Part shown: one piece after another, positions 1,533 to 35,563 of the stretch
Layout: each line of letters opens with the position of its first letter
Position numbering within the stretch: position 1 is the stretch's first letter
NCBI GenBank assembly: GCA_017857755.1
Contig: JAFMCM010000014.1
Span: forward strand, 1-35,563
Length of the DNA: 35,563 bases
Source: Methylophilaceae bacterium
GTDB taxonomy: Bacteria > Pseudomonadota > Gammaproteobacteria > Burkholderiales > Methylophilaceae
Direction: 5' to 3'
Notes under the pieces: generated by a model
Told to the model about the DNA's origin: nothing
Seen by the model: the letters and a program-made list of their open reading frames with translations, nothing else
The model's database searches: none
Made by a program: the position numbers and the translations under genes

Positions 1533-2081
1533 TTAGGGTATTAATTTTACTAATGTTTCTTCAAGAAGCGCCTTTGAAATGCGGCCAAAATAGGTGTTGG
1601 CAATGCTACCATCTGGCTTAATGATGACGGTGTAAGGTAGGGCGCTTTTATCGTTACCCATTTTAAAAGCTAAACTACTGCCAGAGTCTTCGGCAGCTAA
1701 TAGAGGGTAGCTAATGGTGTTTTCTTCAGCAAATGTTTTGATTAATGCAATTTCATCTAGTGCGATACCGATGACAATCACATTTTTGTCTTGGTACTCA
1801 GTATTCAGCGCTGATAGTTCAGGCATTTCTTCGCGGCATGGTGGACACCATGTTGCCCAAAAATTAAGTACAATAATTTTTCCTCGCCACTGGCTTAATG
1901 CTTGTGGTACGCCATTCTCATCAGGTAAGGTCATATCAAACAGCTCAGTAGCAGAGGCTGAACTCACAGGCTGTGCTACCGTCTTTTTTGACATCAAATG
2001 GTTGGTAGAGACGGCGATGAGTATAAATAAAATAATGGCGCTAAATGGAGAAGTCAGTTTGTTTAACATAAGTTTTTTCAA
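1533..2081 (-). CDS. TlpA-like periplasmic thioredoxin-fold protein, membrane anchored
   Basis: Thiol:disulfide oxidoreductase of the TlpA/ResA type, expected to act in the periplasm as a reductant, for example of apocytochromes or other cysteine proteins. Residues about 13-30 form one hydrophobic signal anchor. The thioredoxin fold follows, with WATWCPPC (Cys79 and Cys82) and the downstream cis-proline context ALPYTVI. The CPPC active site is characteristic of TlpA/ResA. It lies 36 bp after dsbD on the same strand, and DsbD is the natural electron donor for such proteins, so the pair probably forms one periplasmic reducing module. The exact client is not visible from sequence. Confidence 0.88.
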   Translation of the reverse strand: MKKLMLNKLTSPFSAIILFILIAVSTNHLMSKKTVAQPVSSASATELFDMTLPDENGVPQALSQWRGKIIVLNFWATWCPPCREEMPELSALNTEYQDKNVIVIGIALDEIALIKTFAEENTISYPLLAAEDSGSSLAFKMGNDKSALPYTVIIKPDGSIANTYFGRISKALLEETLVKLIP

Positions 2082-2117: not shown

Positions 2118-4001
2118 TTAACAAGTCATCAGCGGATTACATGCGTCGGTTTTTAGTGTGTTAACTCGATTAATCGTGGCTAAAAAAGTTGAGGCTTTTT
2201 CGTAGCCGATGACACGAATGGTTTTGATTTCTTGTCCAGCACGATTAAAAAAAATAATGCCAGGTGGTCCAAATAGATTGAAGCGTTGCAACAATGCAAG
2301 ATCAAAAGAGGTGTTATCAGTAACATCAGCCTGTAGTAAAACCACATCTTTTAATGCGGTTTGTACCGCAGGATCGCTAAACGTTAACAGTTCCATTTCT
2401 TTACAGGAGGTACACCAGTCAGCGTAGAAATCCAGCATGACAATTTTACCTTTTGCCTCGTCGATACGGGCGTCTAGCTCGGCAGTATTTTTAACCCGGG
2501 TAAAAAATAAGTGGGAAGTATTTTGTTGTTGATGGGATACACTTAATCCTGCCAGTGGTTGTAGAGGGGACTTGGCGCCAGAAATCGCACCAACTAACAT
2601 GGCGATACCAACAATTAATAACATGATGCCAATCCCTTTCCAAAAGCGCATCCATGGATGTGAGCGGCCTGTGGCGATATTAATCGGCAAGCTATCCAAT
2701 GCGTGTAAGTAAATGGCTGGGATAATCAGCAAGGCTGACCACAACAACATTTGTACATGGATATCAATAATCGGCGAGATGATATAGACGGCAACTGCCA
2801 ACATTAAAATACCAAAGAAGTTTCGTACCGCTGTCATCCAACCGCCTGCTCTGGGAAGCATATGGCCTGCGGAAGCGCCAATGAGTAACAATGGTACGCC
2901 CATGCCAATAGACAACGCAAACAAAGCAACGCCACCTAATAATACATCACGCGTTTGGCTGATATAAATCAGTGCACCTGCTAATGGTGCCGCAACACAA
3001 GGGCTGACAATCATGGCAGAAATGACACCCATTAAGAAAACGCCAAGCAATTGACCGCTTTTGAGTTTGTTCGAGGTGTTGACCATGTAGTCTTGAATAA
3101 AGCTAGGTAATCTTAGCTCATAAAATCCAAACATCGAAAACGACAACACCACAAAGATGACGGCAGTTGCGGTTAGCATCAGTGGGCTTTGCAGCGCATT
3201 GCTCAATAATTGTCCAGATAAACCAGCTGCAATCCCAGCGATGGTATAGCTAAGCGCTATGCCTAACACGTAAGCGAGTGATAGATTAAAGCTGTGCAGA
3301 CGGCTAGTTTCTACTTGATGTACTTTTTCATCGCCAACAATAATGCCAGATAAGATGGGGATCATCGGCAACACGCAAGGGGTGAAAGAAAGCAGTAGGC
3401 CGAAGCCAAAAAACCCAACGGCAATCAGCCATAATTGACCACTTTTTAATAGGTTGGTGGCTTTATCCTCACCATTAGCCTCAGTGGGTGTTTTGGCCAT
3501 CGGTTGCAAGGGCGCCACTTCAGCCATGTTGATATGATAGGTTTTAACTTGAGGTGCGTAACAAAGCCCTTGTTCACTGCAGCCTTGATAGCGGGCCTGT
3601 ATAACCATGGCTTGCGCAGCGTTTTCGATCGTTATCCGAGAAGTAAAATCGTGATGATAAACTTCTTGTTTGCCAAAGTTGGGGTCATTTTTGACATCGC
3701 CAGCTGGCATATCAATCTGACTAATTGTGCCTAGGCTGGCATCTTTGATTTCAAATTGTATACGTTCTTTATAAAGATAATAGCCTGGTACGACAGTGAA
3801 TTTGCCAATTAGGGTGTAATTATCTTGAACTAGCATATCAAGTTTAAAGGCTTGATCTGGCGGTAAGAAATCTGCTTTATCACTTTCATCAAAGAGACTT
3901 AAACCGCTGCTATTGGCAGCAGAACTTGTAAGCGGACTTAACTGCATGAGCAGTACAAATGCGCTTAAAATTATCAATAGCATTGGAAAAGGTTTAAACA
4001 T
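2118..4001 (-). CDS. dsbD: Thiol:disulfide interchange protein DsbD
   Basis: Inner-membrane reductase passing electrons from cytoplasmic thioredoxin to periplasmic thiol proteins. The 627-residue protein has all three expected parts. A signal peptide (about residues 1-28) is followed by the alpha domain with Cys141 and Cys147 (CSEQGLC). An eight-helix core (about 190-490) follows, with the redox pair Cys209 (SFTPCVLP) and Cys335 (VSPCVAAP). Last is a thioredoxin-like gamma domain with DWCTSC (Cys530 and Cys533). It ends in an unusual tail with two more cysteines, 621 and 627, the last being the final residue. Followed by the tlpA-like gene; upstream lies decayed cutA. Confidence 0.96.
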   Translation of the reverse strand: MFKPFPMLLIILSAFVLLMQLSPLTSSAANSSGLSLFDESDKADFLPPDQAFKLDMLVQDNYTLIGKFTVVPGYYLYKERIQFEIKDASLGTISQIDMPAGDVKNDPNFGKQEVYHHDFTSRITIENAAQAMVIQARYQGCSEQGLCYAPQVKTYHINMAEVAPLQPMAKTPTEANGEDKATNLLKSGQLWLIAVGFFGFGLLLSFTPCVLPMIPILSGIIVGDEKVHQVETSRLHSFNLSLAYVLGIALSYTIAGIAAGLSGQLLSNALQSPLMLTATAVIFVVLSFSMFGFYELRLPSFIQDYMVNTSNKLKSGQLLGVFLMGVISAMIVSPCVAAPLAGALIYISQTRDVLLGGVALFALSIGMGVPLLLIGASAGHMLPRAGGWMTAVRNFFGILMLAVAVYIISPIIDIHVQMLLWSALLIIPAIYLHALDSLPINIATGRSHPWMRFWKGIGIMLLIVGIAMLVGAISGAKSPLQPLAGLSVSHQQQNTSHLFFTRVKNTAELDARIDEAKGKIVMLDFYADWCTSCKEMELLTFSDPAVQTALKDVVLLQADVTDNTSFDLALLQRFNLFGPPGIIFFNRAGQEIKTIRVIGYEKASTFLATINRVNTLKTDACNPLMTC

Positions 4002-4008
4002 TGTTGTC

Positions 4009-4299
4009 CTATGGCGAAAATTGAGCGTTAACCCATTGCAAATAATTGATCAAGCCACCATCTACATTGAGTGCAACAATGTCAGGAAGTTCGTATGGGG
4101 CATGGCTAAAATCAGGGCTTCTGCTTAAACTATATAACAATCTACATTTTTTGTTAATTTACTAAATTAAACGCTATTTGCAGTTGGCCTTGCGATTTGG
4201 ATAGGGTTTGGCGCCACCAATATTAACGCAGTCTGATAGTTTAGCCATAATCAGTTATTTTGCAATGCGTTTTGCATCATTAGCGCCAGGCGGATATGT
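4009..4299 (-). pseudogene. cutA: Decayed divalent-cation tolerance gene cutA
   Basis: Three collinear pieces of CutA are recognisable on the minus strand. The C-terminal piece (4012-4107) reads SHAPYELPDIVALNVDGG and continues to a YLQWV tail before a TAG at 4009-4011. The middle piece (4172-4195) reads SQGQLQIA, matching the family's W-Q-G segment with W replaced by S. The N-terminal piece (4201-4299) reads NDAKRIAK, an in-frame TAA (4255-4257), then LIMAKLSDCVNI, matching the family's conserved A-CVNI motif. The pieces lie in different frames, the stretch between QGQLQIA and the PYELP motif is about 30 bp too short, and no start codon is left. cutA commonly precedes dsbD in betaproteobacteria, which supports decay in place. 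Confidence 0.82.
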
Positions 4300-4396
4300 T
4301 GATAGGCTATGGTATTATTTTTTACATAGTGGTTTTTTTAGAATAGGATATTCAAGCATTGTTAATGTGGCTCAATGTTTTTTCGTTAAGGAGTTT

Positions 4397-4870
4397 ATGC
4401 GTTTATTTATCATACTAATCTTAGTGGCTTTCCCAATAGCAGAAATTTGCCTATTGGTAGAGTTGGGCGAACATTATGGCTGGTGGTTAATATTGTACTT
4501 AGTCGTGATTACCTATCTTGGCTTGCAACTAATTAAAGGCGAAAAACAAATGATGACCACTAAAATGATGCAAAGCATACAAGCTGGTGGCAATCCGTTT
4601 AAAACCATTATGGGCAGTGCGCGTAATTTGATTGCAGGATTTTTGTTGGTTATTCCAGGTGTCATAACGGATGTCATAGCGGTCGCTTTACTTTTAATAC
4701 CCATGCAACAAGCGAGTGATCCAAGCGATAGCAGTGAGGCTGAGGGGGGCTATAGGCGTACTGATTCACAATCCGCTAACGATGATATTATTGAAGGCGA
4801 ATTTGAAGAAATCAAAGAAAAGACGAAATATGAAAATATCAGCTTGACTGACCAAGGCCCGAGTCAGTAA
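4397..4870 (+). CDS. fxsA: FxsA family cytoplasmic membrane protein
   Basis: Small membrane protein of the FxsA family; in E. coli it modulates phage T7 F-exclusion, and its normal cellular role is unclear. The 157-residue product begins MRLFIILILVAFPIAEI, has hydrophobic segments at about residues 3-20, 28-46 and 80-100, and carries the conserved GGNPF and LIPGVITD stretches. The tail is acidic and polar (rich in D/E/S), as usual for the family. The ATG at 4397 is chosen because AAGGAG precedes it at a normal distance and the protein then starts where the family starts. The frame is open further upstream, but that part overlaps decayed cutA and has no family similarity. Confidence 0.9.
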   Translation: MRLFIILILVAFPIAEICLLVELGEHYGWWLILYLVVITYLGLQLIKGEKQMMTTKMMQSIQAGGNPFKTIMGSARNLIAGFLLVIPGVITDVIAVALLLIPMQQASDPSDSSEAEGGYRRTDSQSANDDIIEGEFEEIKEKTKYENISLTDQGPSQ

Positions 4871-9289: not shown

Positions 9290-9821
9290 ATAGAATGGCG
9301 ACCCGCATTGACCGTAAAAAACATATTTTTTCTACTGAGTGCTGTTGTCGCCTACTAATGACAGAGAAATGCTAATTTGCAGAACCTGAAAACGCGCTTG
9401 TATTATGGTAGGCGAATAACTGCGCTAGAATTAATTAAAGTTATAAGGCGGAATCGCTAGTCAGACCATCAGAGTCAAGCTGGCGTTTTGCCATTAGTGC
9501 GATTGCTTTCATAAGGATAGGTTAATACAAGTTAATAACGTTGTGCCATCAAAAGAATTGTTTCAGTCTGGACTGCTCTTTTTGGTCACAATTCTGCTCA
9601 ATGAGTGGGCGTATTGCGAGCGGTACAACATGTGCGCTGATTAAAATACGCAACAAAATGCATCATTGAGTAAACTAGATAACAACGTTTGTTTACCCAC
9701 TTTTGCTCATCATAAGGTCTAAATAAGGTCTAAGTTAAAATGTCTATGAATCTTAGCTGTAAGTGTATTATGATTGATACTATTTTCTATCACCAAAACC
9801 AAACATAAAGCTAATCAAACC
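9290..9821. other. Long intergenic region between the CmpX-like gene and argH
   Basis: About 530 bp with no recognisable gene on either strand; the longest frames are about 35 codons with no ribosome binding site or family similarity. The one clear structure is a perfect 11-bp tandem repeat at 9712-9733, listed separately. The argH promoter presumably lies in the right-hand half, but I could not assign a convincing -35/-10 pair. Confidence 0.6.
9712..9733. repeat. Perfect tandem repeat of an 11-bp unit upstream of argH
   Basis: ATAAGGTCTAA occurs twice back to back (9712-9722 and 9723-9733), about 90 bp before the chosen argH start. The 11-bp period equals roughly one helical turn, so two protein subunits could bind the same DNA face. 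It does not resemble an ArgR box. Confidence 0.7.
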
Positions 9822-11240
9822 GTGTCAGAACATCATAAAGAGACAACATCATCACTCAATGCCAAAGCAGAAGCGTGGTCAGGACGATTCAATGAACCTG
9901 TTGCTGAGTTGGTAAAACGCTATACCGCTTCTGTTGACTTTGATCAGCGCCTTGCGGTATTTGACATTCAAGGCTCAGTCGCCCATGCGCAAATGTTAGC
10001 TGCACAAAAGATTATTTCAAACGATGATTTGATTGCCATTGAACAAGGCTTAGCTGAAGTTAAACAAGACATTGCAGCAGGTACTTTTGAGTGGTTATTA
10101 GATCTTGAAGATGTGCATCTTAATATTGAAAAAGCATTAACCGATAAAATTGGTGATGCAGGTAAGCGCTTACACACAGGTAGAAGCCGTAATGACCAGG
10201 TAGCTACCGATATACGACTCTATTTACGTGCTGTTTGTGATGATGCGATTGCAGGGATTAAGAAGTTGCAAACAAGCTTGCTGGATTTGGCAGCGCAACA
10301 TGCCCATACGATCATGCCGGGCTTTACTCATCTACAAGTGGCACAGCCAGTCACGTTTGGACACCACTTGCTGGCTTATTACGAGATGCTAAAACGGGAT
10401 GCATCTCGTTTTTCGGATTGTAGAAAACGCATAAATCAATTGCCACTGGGCGCGGCTGCTTTAGCTGGCACCAGCTATCCGATTGACCGTGAAATGGTGG
10501 CTAAATTATTAGATTTTGATGGCGTTTGCGAGAATTCTCTTGATGCCGTTTCTGATCGTGATTTTGCTATCGAGTTTACGGCAGCCAGCGCATTATTGAT
10601 GACGCATTTGTCACGCTTTTCAGAGGAGCTCATTTTATGGTGTTCACCACGGTTTGCTTTTATTGAAATCGCTGATCGCTTTTGCACAGGTTCTAGTATC
10701 ATGCCGCAGAAAAAGAACCCAGACGTGCCAGAGTTAGTGCGCGGTAAAACAGGCCGGGTGAATGGGCATTTGGTTGCTTTACTAACGCTGATGAAAGGCC
10801 AGCCATTGGCCTACAATAAAGATAACCAAGAAGATAAAGAGCCGTTGTTCGATACAGCCGATACGCTATTAGTTACATTGGAAATCTATGCCGATATGAT
10901 GCGTGGCATCACGGTTAATAAAGACAATATGCGTCAAGCCGCTTTTGAGGGTTATGCTACTGCGACCGATTTGGCTGATTATTTAGTGAAAAAAGGTATG
11001 CCATTTAGAGATGCGCATGAAGTTGTCGCTTTAGCAGTGAGACATGCTGTAGATCAAAAGTGCGACTTATCTGAACTAAGTTTAGAGCAACTGCGAACAT
11101 TTAGCGACACAATTACAGAAGATATTTTTGCTGTGTTGACTTTAGACGGTTCTGTTGCCAGCCGAAATCATATTGGTGGAACAGCACCTGAGCAGGTGTT
11201 AAAAGCGATTGCGCGCGCCAGACAGGCGCTTAACGGCTAA
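9822..11240 (+). CDS. argH: Argininosuccinate lyase
   Basis: Cleaves argininosuccinate to arginine and fumarate, the last step of arginine synthesis. The product is a fumarase/aspartase-superfamily enzyme with [20 protein letters not shown] at the start, THLQVAQPV (catalytic His near residue 170) and the signature loop [12 protein letters not shown] (about residues 290-301, catalytic Ser region). GTG at 9822 gives 472 residues and places the conserved [10 protein letters not shown] block about 15 residues in, as in homologues. The frame is open upstream to a TTG at 9774, but that extension looks non-native. It is single, convergent with hemW. Confidence 0.95.
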
Positions 11241-14454: not shown

Positions 14455-14609
14455 TAGCGTTATAGCTTGGATAAATGCTTGGTATTAGAATTGACATTTT
14501 AGCTATTGTACGCAAAATTTAAACAGGGAAACTAGAAAAATTAAGTTTAGGCTCTAAACTGGCGGGCGGATATTGTTTTACAACGAGAAAAGTTAGGCAG
14601 ACAACAGAA

Positions 14610-14828
14610 TTATGTTTTGTCGTAAGGATTAATTAATTCATCCACCATTTGATGCAATACTGCGCGCATTTGTGTTTCTGATACTTCCATCAGTAGACCA
14701 TCTTCAAACGCATCTTGGGTGATTTGTTGTATCTCGTCAAAGTTTTCTTTCATGACGCGGATTTTTTCTGTACAGGCGACAATGCTTTTATCATCGCGTA
14801 TCCATATAGGTAATGCTATTTTTGACAT
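14610..14828 (-). CDS. Small conserved protein of unknown function
   Basis: A 72-residue acidic, mostly helical protein beginning MSKIALPIWIRDDKSIVACTE and ending NPYDKT. I recall similar short proteins beside rdgB/hemW in other betaproteobacteria but know no assigned domain or function. It has no membrane segment or signal peptide and only one cysteine. It starts 14 bp after the rdgB stop on the same strand, so it is probably cotranscribed with rph-rdgB. The composition and the position tight behind rdgB argue for a real gene. Confidence 0.75.
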   Translation of the reverse strand: MSKIALPIWIRDDKSIVACTEKIRVMKENFDEIQQITQDAFEDGLLMEVSETQMRAVLHQMVDELINPYDKT

Positions 14829-14842
14829 ATTGTAATGTGAGA

Positions 14843-16173: not shown

Positions 16174-16565
16174 ATTGTGAATAATCTTTTTAGTAAAAAA
16201 ACAGATTATAAAACATGCAGAAACGATGTGCTTCTTAATTCATGTTATCTGCTTGTCTCTGTTGATTACACCTCCAATTTATGCACCAGCCAAGCAAGTC
16301 CTAAGACCATCAGCATAAAGTCGTATAGTATCGCTATTGTGTTTTTTGACAGGTAGACAAAACAATACCTGTCTATAGTTAAAACTTCAGTGATGGTAGT
16401 ATAGTCCTGGAATGCGGCAAGGTTTGAGGGTTAACTTTTGCCATGTCAATAAGCCATGTCAACTCTGAGAGTTGAGGCTGAAATCTGATGGTCATTCAGA
16501 CATCGAATCAACCACATTTGATACAATTATTATCAATTACTTTAATTTTTTGTGAATAAAACAAC
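16174..16565. other. Divergent intergenic region rph/yicC
   Basis: About 390 bp with no convincing gene. It holds a perfect 8-bp inverted repeat, GACAGGTA (16348-16355) and TACCTGTC (16366-16373) with a 10-nt loop. It also holds two direct copies of GCCATGTCAA (16440-16449 and 16454-16463), and a small hairpin CAACTC-TGA-GAGTTG (16460-16474). Promoters for both flanking genes presumably lie here; none stands out. Some betaproteobacteria have a PP2C phosphatase and a Ser/Thr kinase gene at this position, and neither is present. Confidence 0.6.
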
Positions 16566-24547: not shown

Positions 24548-24560
24548 TCATGTTCAGCTA

Positions 24561-24662
24561 TCAACAGATGTTTATCTGCAGTTGCTGTAGAAAAGCCTTT
24601 TGTTGGCGATGAGGTGCATCCTCTATTCGCTCAATAGTTTCTAAATTTTCAGCACAAAACAT
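24561..24662 (-). CDS. Candidate 33-residue small protein with strong ribosome binding site
   Basis: A minus-strand frame of 33 codons beginning MFCAENLETIERIED and ending LQQLQINIC. It is preceded by AAAGGAGG (complement of 24672-24679), which ends 9 nt before the ATG: one of the best Shine-Dalgarno sequences in the window. The predicted peptide is hydrophilic and helix-prone, rich in Glu and Gln, with a cysteine at residue 3 and one at the C terminus. An in-frame stop lies just upstream, so it is not the tail of a longer frame. I recognise no family. It may be a real small gene or the remnant of one; it is convergent with ubiA. Confidence 0.42.
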   Translation of the reverse strand: MFCAENLETIERIEDAPHRQQKAFLQQLQINIC

Positions 24663-25001
24663 AAATCGATGCCTCCTTTAAAAGCTTAGCCTAATCTGAA
24701 TAACATCATGACATCCAATGGGCGTTTGGATAGTAAATGGCAAAAGAATCGTTCACGGTAGTTGATTTAATTTAGGCGTTAAACAATGATTAGTCCCTTA
24801 TTTCATGTCTTTTATAAAGGGTCTTTATTGATAAAAACTAACTTTATATTATAGTTTTTACATTCAGCTAGGCGCACACAAGCGCTTGACCAAGTTAGTT
24901 ATCTGATTAAGAAATGTGCTATTAAAATAACTAAAATGCTAAAATAAGTAATGTAGTCACTCTTATACACAGAAATAATTCATTTTACAGGATAAAATTG
25001 T
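24663..25001. other. Intergenic region upstream of the rplM promoter
   Basis: AT-rich, with no gene apart from the small minus-strand frame to its left. It holds an inverted repeat AAAAACTA (24833-24840) / TAGTTTTT (24852-24859) with an 11-nt loop. The stem is A/T-rich and weak, and no function is assigned. Confidence 0.5.
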
Positions 25002-25030
25002 TTGACGAGGCGTGAGCAAAAGCATATAAT
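25002..25030 (+). promoter_or_regulatory. Sigma-70 promoter of rplM-rpsI
   Basis: TTGACG (-35, 25002-25007), a 17-bp spacer and TATAAT (-10, 25025-25030), a near-consensus promoter. The predicted start is about 25037, leaving a leader of about 40 nt before rplM. Confidence 0.88.
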
Positions 25031-25075
25031 CCGCCCTCTTGATTTTAATAAGCTATATAAATTGGTAGTAATATG

Positions 25076-34416: not shown

Positions 34417-34620
34417 AGCATCAATCCCATCCTCGTCGAATTGAAAAAGTACTAACGCTAAACTGTTGATAAGTCGTACAGCTCCTTTTGATTAAGTTTC
34501 TCTATTCAATCAGGCTTAAGCATCAGGGCTGCTATGTCGGATACACGAGGAGTATGCCATTGGCATATTTCAACTATTGAGTTCCGTTATACTTTTGTCC
34601 ATTAGGGTCCATAGACTAGC
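34417..34620. other. Spacer between the MscS gene and the rRNA promoter region
   Basis: No gene or terminator hairpin was found. It contains a palindrome TATGCCA-T-TGGCATA at 34553-34567. Confidence 0.5.
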
Positions 34621-34660
34621 TACTTAATTGTAATTAAATTGTAATAAATCCCAAAAATCC

Positions 34661-34688
34661 TTGACCAAATTTCCAGCCACGGTAGAAT
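34661..34688 (+). promoter_or_regulatory. rRNA operon promoter module 1
   Basis: TTGACC (34661-34666), 16-bp spacer, TAGAAT (34683-34688). The 40 bp upstream are very AT-rich with two AATTGTAAT copies, resembling an UP element. A small CTCG/CGAG stem and GTGAAAGACGCAA follow. Confidence 0.8.
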
Positions 34689-34769
34689 TCTGCCCTCGCA
34701 CGAGTAGTCGAGTGAAAGACGCAATAAAATGCAATGTTAACCATTTGTTTAGTTGACTAAAATAAATAC

Positions 34770-34797
34770 TTGACTGTCTTGTAAAGCACTGTAGAAT
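34770..34797 (+). promoter_or_regulatory. rRNA operon promoter module 2
   Basis: TTGACT (34770-34775), 16-bp spacer, TAGAAT (34792-34797), then a GC-rich discriminator GCGCACC, as is usual for promoters inhibited by ppGpp. It is followed by a hairpin GCTCGT-GACA-ACGAGC and GCGAAAGTCGCAA. AT-rich sequence lies upstream. Confidence 0.85.
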
Positions 34798-34871
34798 GCG
34801 CACCTTGCTCGTGACAACGAGCGAAAGTCGCAACAGAACTAACAAGTTAAGTGATTAATTGAAATTAATGC

Positions 34872-34899
34872 TTGACTGGTTTTAAAACCTCTGTAAAAT
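34872..34899 (+). promoter_or_regulatory. rRNA operon promoter module 3
   Basis: TTGACT (34872-34877), 16-bp spacer, TAAAAT (34894-34899), then the same GCGCACC discriminator as module 2. A small ACGC-AAA-GCGT hairpin follows. It is nearest to the rRNA, about 320 bp before the 16S 5' end. Confidence 0.85.
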
Positions 34900-34934
34900 G
34901 CGCACCTCGTTAACGCAAAGCGTGAATCGATAAA

Positions 34935-34962
34935 GCCGAAAAGGCACTGTTCTTTAACAATC
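34935..34962 (+). promoter_or_regulatory. rRNA antitermination (boxB-like/boxA) site
   Basis: A boxB-like mini-hairpin GCC-GAAAA-GGC (34935-34945) is followed by TGTTCTTTAACAAT (34949-34962), which matches the E. coli rRNA boxA TGCTCTTTAACAA closely. It would recruit the Nus factors to make rRNA transcription resistant to Rho. Confidence 0.82.
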
Positions 34963-35219
34963 AGAATGACTGATAAGTGTGGGTGTTTGTGGTTGAGACA
35001 ACAACATTAGACGAAACGTTTAATGTGACTCAAGATATAAATGCTTACACTTAAATTTATGACAAGTATGTAATAACCATTAGCTAGCAATAGTTAATGC
35101 GTACAAGACACACCTTGGAAATGAATTTGAGATATGCTTTTATAGAAATTAATTTCTGTAGAAGACAAAGCAAAAGCGAAATACCACCTCGCAAGAGGAA
35201 AAAGTAATAGTTGTGAATT

Positions 35220-35563
<344 letters not shown>

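Follow-up and report, generated by a model that had tools for sequence, protein, structure and literature searches.

A probable unitary pseudogene of cutA between fxsA and dsbD in a Methylophilaceae genome

CutA in the literature and at the fxsA-dsbD locus

The label of copper tolerance gene that is attached to cutA is disputed. In the available parts of PMC8469502 and PMC7694984, the involvement of CutA in metal tolerance is described as either refuted or not found in a cyanobacterium, so that loss of cutA alone does not predict copper sensitivity, and the weight that the first-pass annotation of this DNA had placed on copper tolerance is not supported. The same part of PMC8469502 names HPYE as a signature of CutA and calls DsbD CutA2. 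For the Methylophilaceae, genome streamlining has been described (Salcher et al., PMC6794327, available in part), and the introduction of that paper states that streamlined genomes have few pseudogenes; its main text contains neither "cuta" nor "copper". The decay of cutA reported here resembles that streamlining in the family concerned and in the loss of dispensable genes. Literature searches that covered few subscription papers showed no title on this subject among the matches listed.

The window analysed here (35,563 nucleotides) is one whole contig, JAFMCM010000014.1, of a 1.6 Mb Methylophilaceae genome (GCA_017857755.1, G000) in 67 contigs, 99.4% complete. The features of the locus are as follows.

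1533..2081, minus strand: putative TlpA-like thioredoxin-fold protein, named by eye, downstream of dsbD
2118..4001, minus strand: dsbD, intact, open frame of 627 aa, co-oriented with the pseudogene and downstream of it
4009..4359, minus strand: cutA pseudogene, from ATG 4359-4357 to TAG 4011-4009, with five internal in-frame stops, a frame-shifted middle and an internal deletion
4099..4359, minus strand: decayed 5' part of the pseudogene, in which the five internal stops all fall, along with the main indels
4009..4098, minus strand: 3' end of the pseudogene (PYELPDIVALNVDGGLINYLQWVNAQFSP), hardly changed and lying immediately before dsbD, with 50 of 52 relative-invariant columns kept
4397..4870, plus strand: fxsA, intact, open frame of 157 aa, divergent neighbour

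The five other genomes of the genus (G001-G005) all carry an intact cutA between fxsA and dsbD, in the same place, order and strands as the remnant, with 65-73% DNA identity to it over aligned bases. Their cutA frames are open (107-125 aa, no stops), while that of the remnant is broken. G001 has CutA copies on two contigs (L002, 184-519, and L007, 1483-1809) which share their C-terminal parts and differ in their N-terminal parts; one of them may be a chimeric contig end. The alignment, codon and tree analyses were made without L002 (contig G001:C82), because its 5' part differs from that of L007 and lies at a contig end, possibly chimeric; it was kept in the 36-row alignment behind the family CutA profile.

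Taken on its sequence, the remnant is very probably a unitary pseudogene, that is, the sole cutA found in this Methylophilaceae genome, which has lost its function and is decaying in place, as seen in one genome of the species. The locus shows an intact orthologue in 5/5 relatives, disabling lesions, no other copy found, and selection that is relaxed except at the 3' end. A profile search of the 67 contigs gave a single CutA match at E <= 0.001, which is the broken copy, and no second cutA was found in G000; a copy outside the assembly is possible though unlikely.

Anatomy of the remnant and its rate of change

From ATG to TAG the remnant is 351 nt long, and its ATG and final stop share one net frame. 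With X at the stops, this frame matches Pfam CutA1 (PF03091) from profile position 8 to 98 (of 99) with 32.3 bits (E 9.1e-8), above the gathering score of 22.4, while the remaining two minus frames gave no Pfam match up to E 10. The match to NCBIfam dival_cat_tol_CutA, at 30.8 bits, stays below the cut-off of 120, which is what a wrecked gene should give. Read through its stops, the remnant thus matches the CutA1 profile at family level and has no intact frame; with five stops, a deletion and frame shifts, it is a relic of a CutA1 member and not a member.

The first-pass annotation had described a cutA decayed in place between intact dsbD and fxsA, with three CutA fragments in the correct order interrupted by an in-frame stop, a frameshift and an internal deletion. 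This picture holds: all three fragments are present on the minus strand, both neighbours are open, and five in-frame stops of two kinds (TAA, TAG) interrupt the reading. Aligned with the five intact relatives, the remnant shows gaps of about 4 nt (split 2+2 by one alignment) and of 5-6 nt, besides several small indels (1-4 nt). The fragment SQGQLQIA does not share the frame of the other two and aligns with the W-Q-G-x-I-E segment of the relatives, which indicates that the middle of the remnant is frame-shifted and that the frame is restored before PYELP. In the HPYE signature, PYELP is kept and H reads as A in frame, with a 1-nt gap just before it; the C-terminal tail LINYLQWVNAQFSP is still present up to the stop. 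Two points of that description have to be corrected. The gene had been said to have no start codon, but it has an ATG at 4359-4357, which lines up with the cutA start in G003 and G002 and is followed by a stop 14 codons later; and the extent given, 4009-4299, does contain decayed cutA, but the remnant spans 4009-4359. The three checks proposed with it, on the three minus frames, on the sister genomes and on another cutA in this genome, all came out in favour of decay in place.

The rate of change was measured at columns identical in all five intact relatives, split by codon position. At positions 1+2 the remnant has changed at 30/135 sites, compared with 41/454 for fxsA and dsbD of the same genome together (13/209 and 28/245, respectively; Fisher p 1.2e-4 for cutA against both). 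The corresponding values in each intact relative are 2-9 of 107-114 for cutA, 6-17 of 223-234 for dsbD and 1-21 of 197-217 for fxsA. Part of the cutA excess reflects the speed of the lineage, since intact genes of this genome (dsbD) are also somewhat faster than those of the relatives. The two ends of the remnant behave differently: in its 5' part, 29/100 sites at positions 1+2 and 8/22 at position 3 have changed, whereas the last ~80 nt show 1/35 and 1/15, respectively. The 5' two thirds of the remnant thus evolve roughly as neutral DNA. Considering that the two 5' rates are nearly equal, the decay seems to span much of the branch leading to this lineage, and the earlier view that it is recent finds no support.

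These observations also bear on two other accounts of the broken frame. The assembly is a draft of 67 contigs, one of which is the window, and a sequencing or assembly error might have broken a cutA that is intact in the organism; this is highly improbable, as five stops, several indels, an internal deletion and 30/135 changed constrained sites are packed into one gene between two open neighbours, and errors do not concentrate so. That a full CutA protein is still made through recoding or frameshifting would fit the single net frame shared by the ATG and the final stop, but five in-frame stops of two kinds, the internal deletion and the largely lost 5' constraint make this the least credible reading of all. 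Loss of function followed by decay in place is the reading retained below.

Loss of cutA across the family

A CutA match was found in 102 of 187 Methylophilaceae genomes, the wreck in the window and a short match in G106 included, and 85 genomes are without one. Any sense of a singular event is not supported, as cutA is gone from the locus in several lineages of the family. The short match (G106:C1, L137, about 1371-1739) lies between fxsA and dsbD in a one-contig genome of 2.8 Mb, and covers 46 residues of the C-terminal half by the family CutA profile, including YELPEIIHVSI, with two stops near the end. It represents a second cutA in decay and comes from a different genus of the Methylophilaceae. 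Like the pseudogene in the window, it is at the fxsA-dsbD locus, retains the C-terminal YELPE part and has stops after it; unlike the latter, it has lost most of its 5' part. In the DsbD tree, G106 sits (on a long branch) among genomes with intact cutA and away from the genus of the window, which points to an independent loss event.

The region upstream of fxsA was compared in 60 cases, namely 56 from the 85 genomes without a match, G161, G121 and G136 (CutA match elsewhere) and G076 (intact). Leaving out G076, G125 and G122 (in the last two, dsbD does not adjoin fxsA), there are 57 closed-up loci, 54 of them from genomes without any CutA match and three from genomes with a match elsewhere. 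In these 57, fxsA faces dsbD across 25-195 nt (median 118), and scanning these gaps with the family CutA profile gave at most 1.9 bits, compared with up to 9.0 for 3600 shuffled frames, 46 for the window and 34 for G106; no trace of cutA was detected in them. The matches of the three exceptions are on G161:C61, G121:C9 and G136:C343, with none at the fxsA-dsbD locus; their CutA has perhaps been regained or moved.

The DsbD tree has 92 rows (34 with cutA intact, 58 with cutA gone), these being the sequences long enough among 94 DsbD matches from 97 loci. The fewest cutA state changes on it are 4, a count that is blind to gain versus loss. As we read the topology, a history of four changes would require cutA to have been lost twice and regained twice in one and the same place. 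In a wider set obtained by DsbD scan, 80 loci were kept of 593 found, and removal of 9 without a CutA match gave 71; this set is not independent of the family set, because some Methylophilaceae are in both. In 71/71 of these loci cutA precedes dsbD in the same orientation, lying within 400 nt of the aligned dsbD segment in 44; fxsA was found in 25 loci, divergent next to cutA in 7. The order cutA before dsbD is thus probably ancestral, and on account of this constancy we read the changes as five losses: one each in the genome of the window, G106, G139 and G046, and an old one covering a clade of 54 rows. The number is approximate, because some rows, G106 included, have long branches.

The path would then be one in which cutA became dispensable, the only copy lost its function and gathered stops, indels and replacement changes between the divergent fxsA and the downstream dsbD, and deletions finally removed the remnant, as in relatives. 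The 3' end may lag behind in this process if it is part of the dsbD leader, as expression of dsbD must persist. Both the pseudogene of G106 and the 57 closed-up loci fit the same path. By itself, the remnant in the window is one more ordinary pseudogene, cutA having been lost elsewhere in the Methylophilaceae as well. The survey makes it part of a small natural series at one fixed locus (intact, decaying in two genomes, closed up) in a family known for genome reduction. It also shows that loss of cutA is compatible with retention of the neighbouring dsbD, which bears weakly on the role of CutA.

The slow-changing 3' end and the dsbD leader

The 3' end of the remnant alone shows no decay. Of the columns that are invariant among the relatives, it keeps 50/52, compared with 85/127 in the 5' part (Fisher p 1.4e-5); the intact relatives themselves keep 127 of 131-141 columns in the 5' part and 52 of 54-57 in the 3' end. 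When only the well-aligned 5' block KRIAK-CVNIG is used (38/47 kept), the contrast shrinks to p 0.023, because part of the middle of the remnant aligns poorly. The 3' end has changed at the same rate in the remnant (2/52) as in the intact relatives (2/54 in four, 5/57 in one). Third codon positions are also unusually invariant there among the five intact relatives, with 15/23 against 22/77 in the rest of cutA (p 0.0026) and against 101/443 when the remainder of cutA is pooled with fxsA and dsbD (p 3e-5).

The final stop of the pseudogene is separated from the ATG of dsbD by 7 bases, a spacing which places the end of the pseudogene at the expected ribosome-binding site of dsbD. It is possible, though on balance we doubt it, that the CutA protein is gone while the last ~80-90 nt are kept because the dsbD operon has part of its leader or promoter region in them, an account compatible with that of a unitary pseudogene. 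The slow change of the 3' end (p 1.4e-5, or 0.023 with the best block) and its invariant third positions in intact relatives argue for it, as does the pseudogene of G106, which likewise keeps the YELPEIIHVSI part with most of the 5' part lost. Against it, the 57 loci without cutA show no trace of the gene upstream of dsbD, so that such an element is unneeded there; RNA structure in the dsbD leader is no better than in shuffles; the best promoter-like match falls in the decayed middle, outside the 3' end; the family-wide synonymous excess lies in single codons more than in a block; and the 3' part codes for highly conserved residues in intact genes.

Three candidate signals of such a function were set aside. 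Synonymous constraint forming a block at the 3' end (3' versus 5') is weak in 35 family loci (p 0.037) and absent in 71 wider loci (p 0.67), an element GAACTTC conserved upstream of dsbD in genomes without cutA occurs in only 1/57 (G046), and RNA structure in the leader has a z of 0.52 against shuffles. The promoter-like match mentioned above lies at 4129-4157 on the minus strand (TTAACA, 17 nt, TATAGT, 10/12), facing dsbD; between 3950 and 4450 there are 5 such matches compared with a shuffle mean of 2.4 (sd 1.5), which is a weak excess.

One such codon is that for the Leu of the HPYELP segment of CutA. Counting per locus, without phylogenetic correction, this codon is CTT in 32/34 family loci (3.9 expected from local codon use) and in 34/55 wider loci (7.8 expected). 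Across the class, 18 of the 30 loci examined have HPYxL, where Leu is CTT in 14/18 and CTG in 0/18, although CTG makes up 40% of Leu codons there. In other ELP tripeptides of the same loci CTT is used in 0/13 and about 9/87 cases, and the Pro codon after the Leu of HPYELP varies freely. A similar excess of single codons is seen in cutA for Val GTC, Thr ACC and Glu GAA. The fixed CTT of the window falls within 4085-4092 on the minus strand, and the loci surveyed were L003-L037, L057-L136 and L231-L260. GAACTTCC is still present in both pseudogenes, that of the window and that of G106. One could imagine that the last ~80-90 nt of cutA, around the fixed GAA CTT codons, have a second, non-protein function (e.g. 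in expression of the dsbD operon) which outlives the protein, and that this end would persist in dying cutA genes until dsbD acquires a new leader, but we regard this broader proposal as improbable.

Elsewhere in the window, five gaps picked by eye were scanned for more pseudogenes (9290-9850, 24548-25072 and 34417-35219 in six frames, 14455-14842 and 16174-16565 in two of six frames each), and every Pfam match was under its cut-off (DUF863, 10.5 bits against 25; Zn_ribbon_DZR_6, 16.6 against 23.4; DUF6579, 13.8 against 27.2). A tRNA search of the window found none. The sole match to an RNA family at gathering level is the 16S rRNA at the window end (35220-35563), where the contig stops inside the gene, a common break point of draft assemblies.
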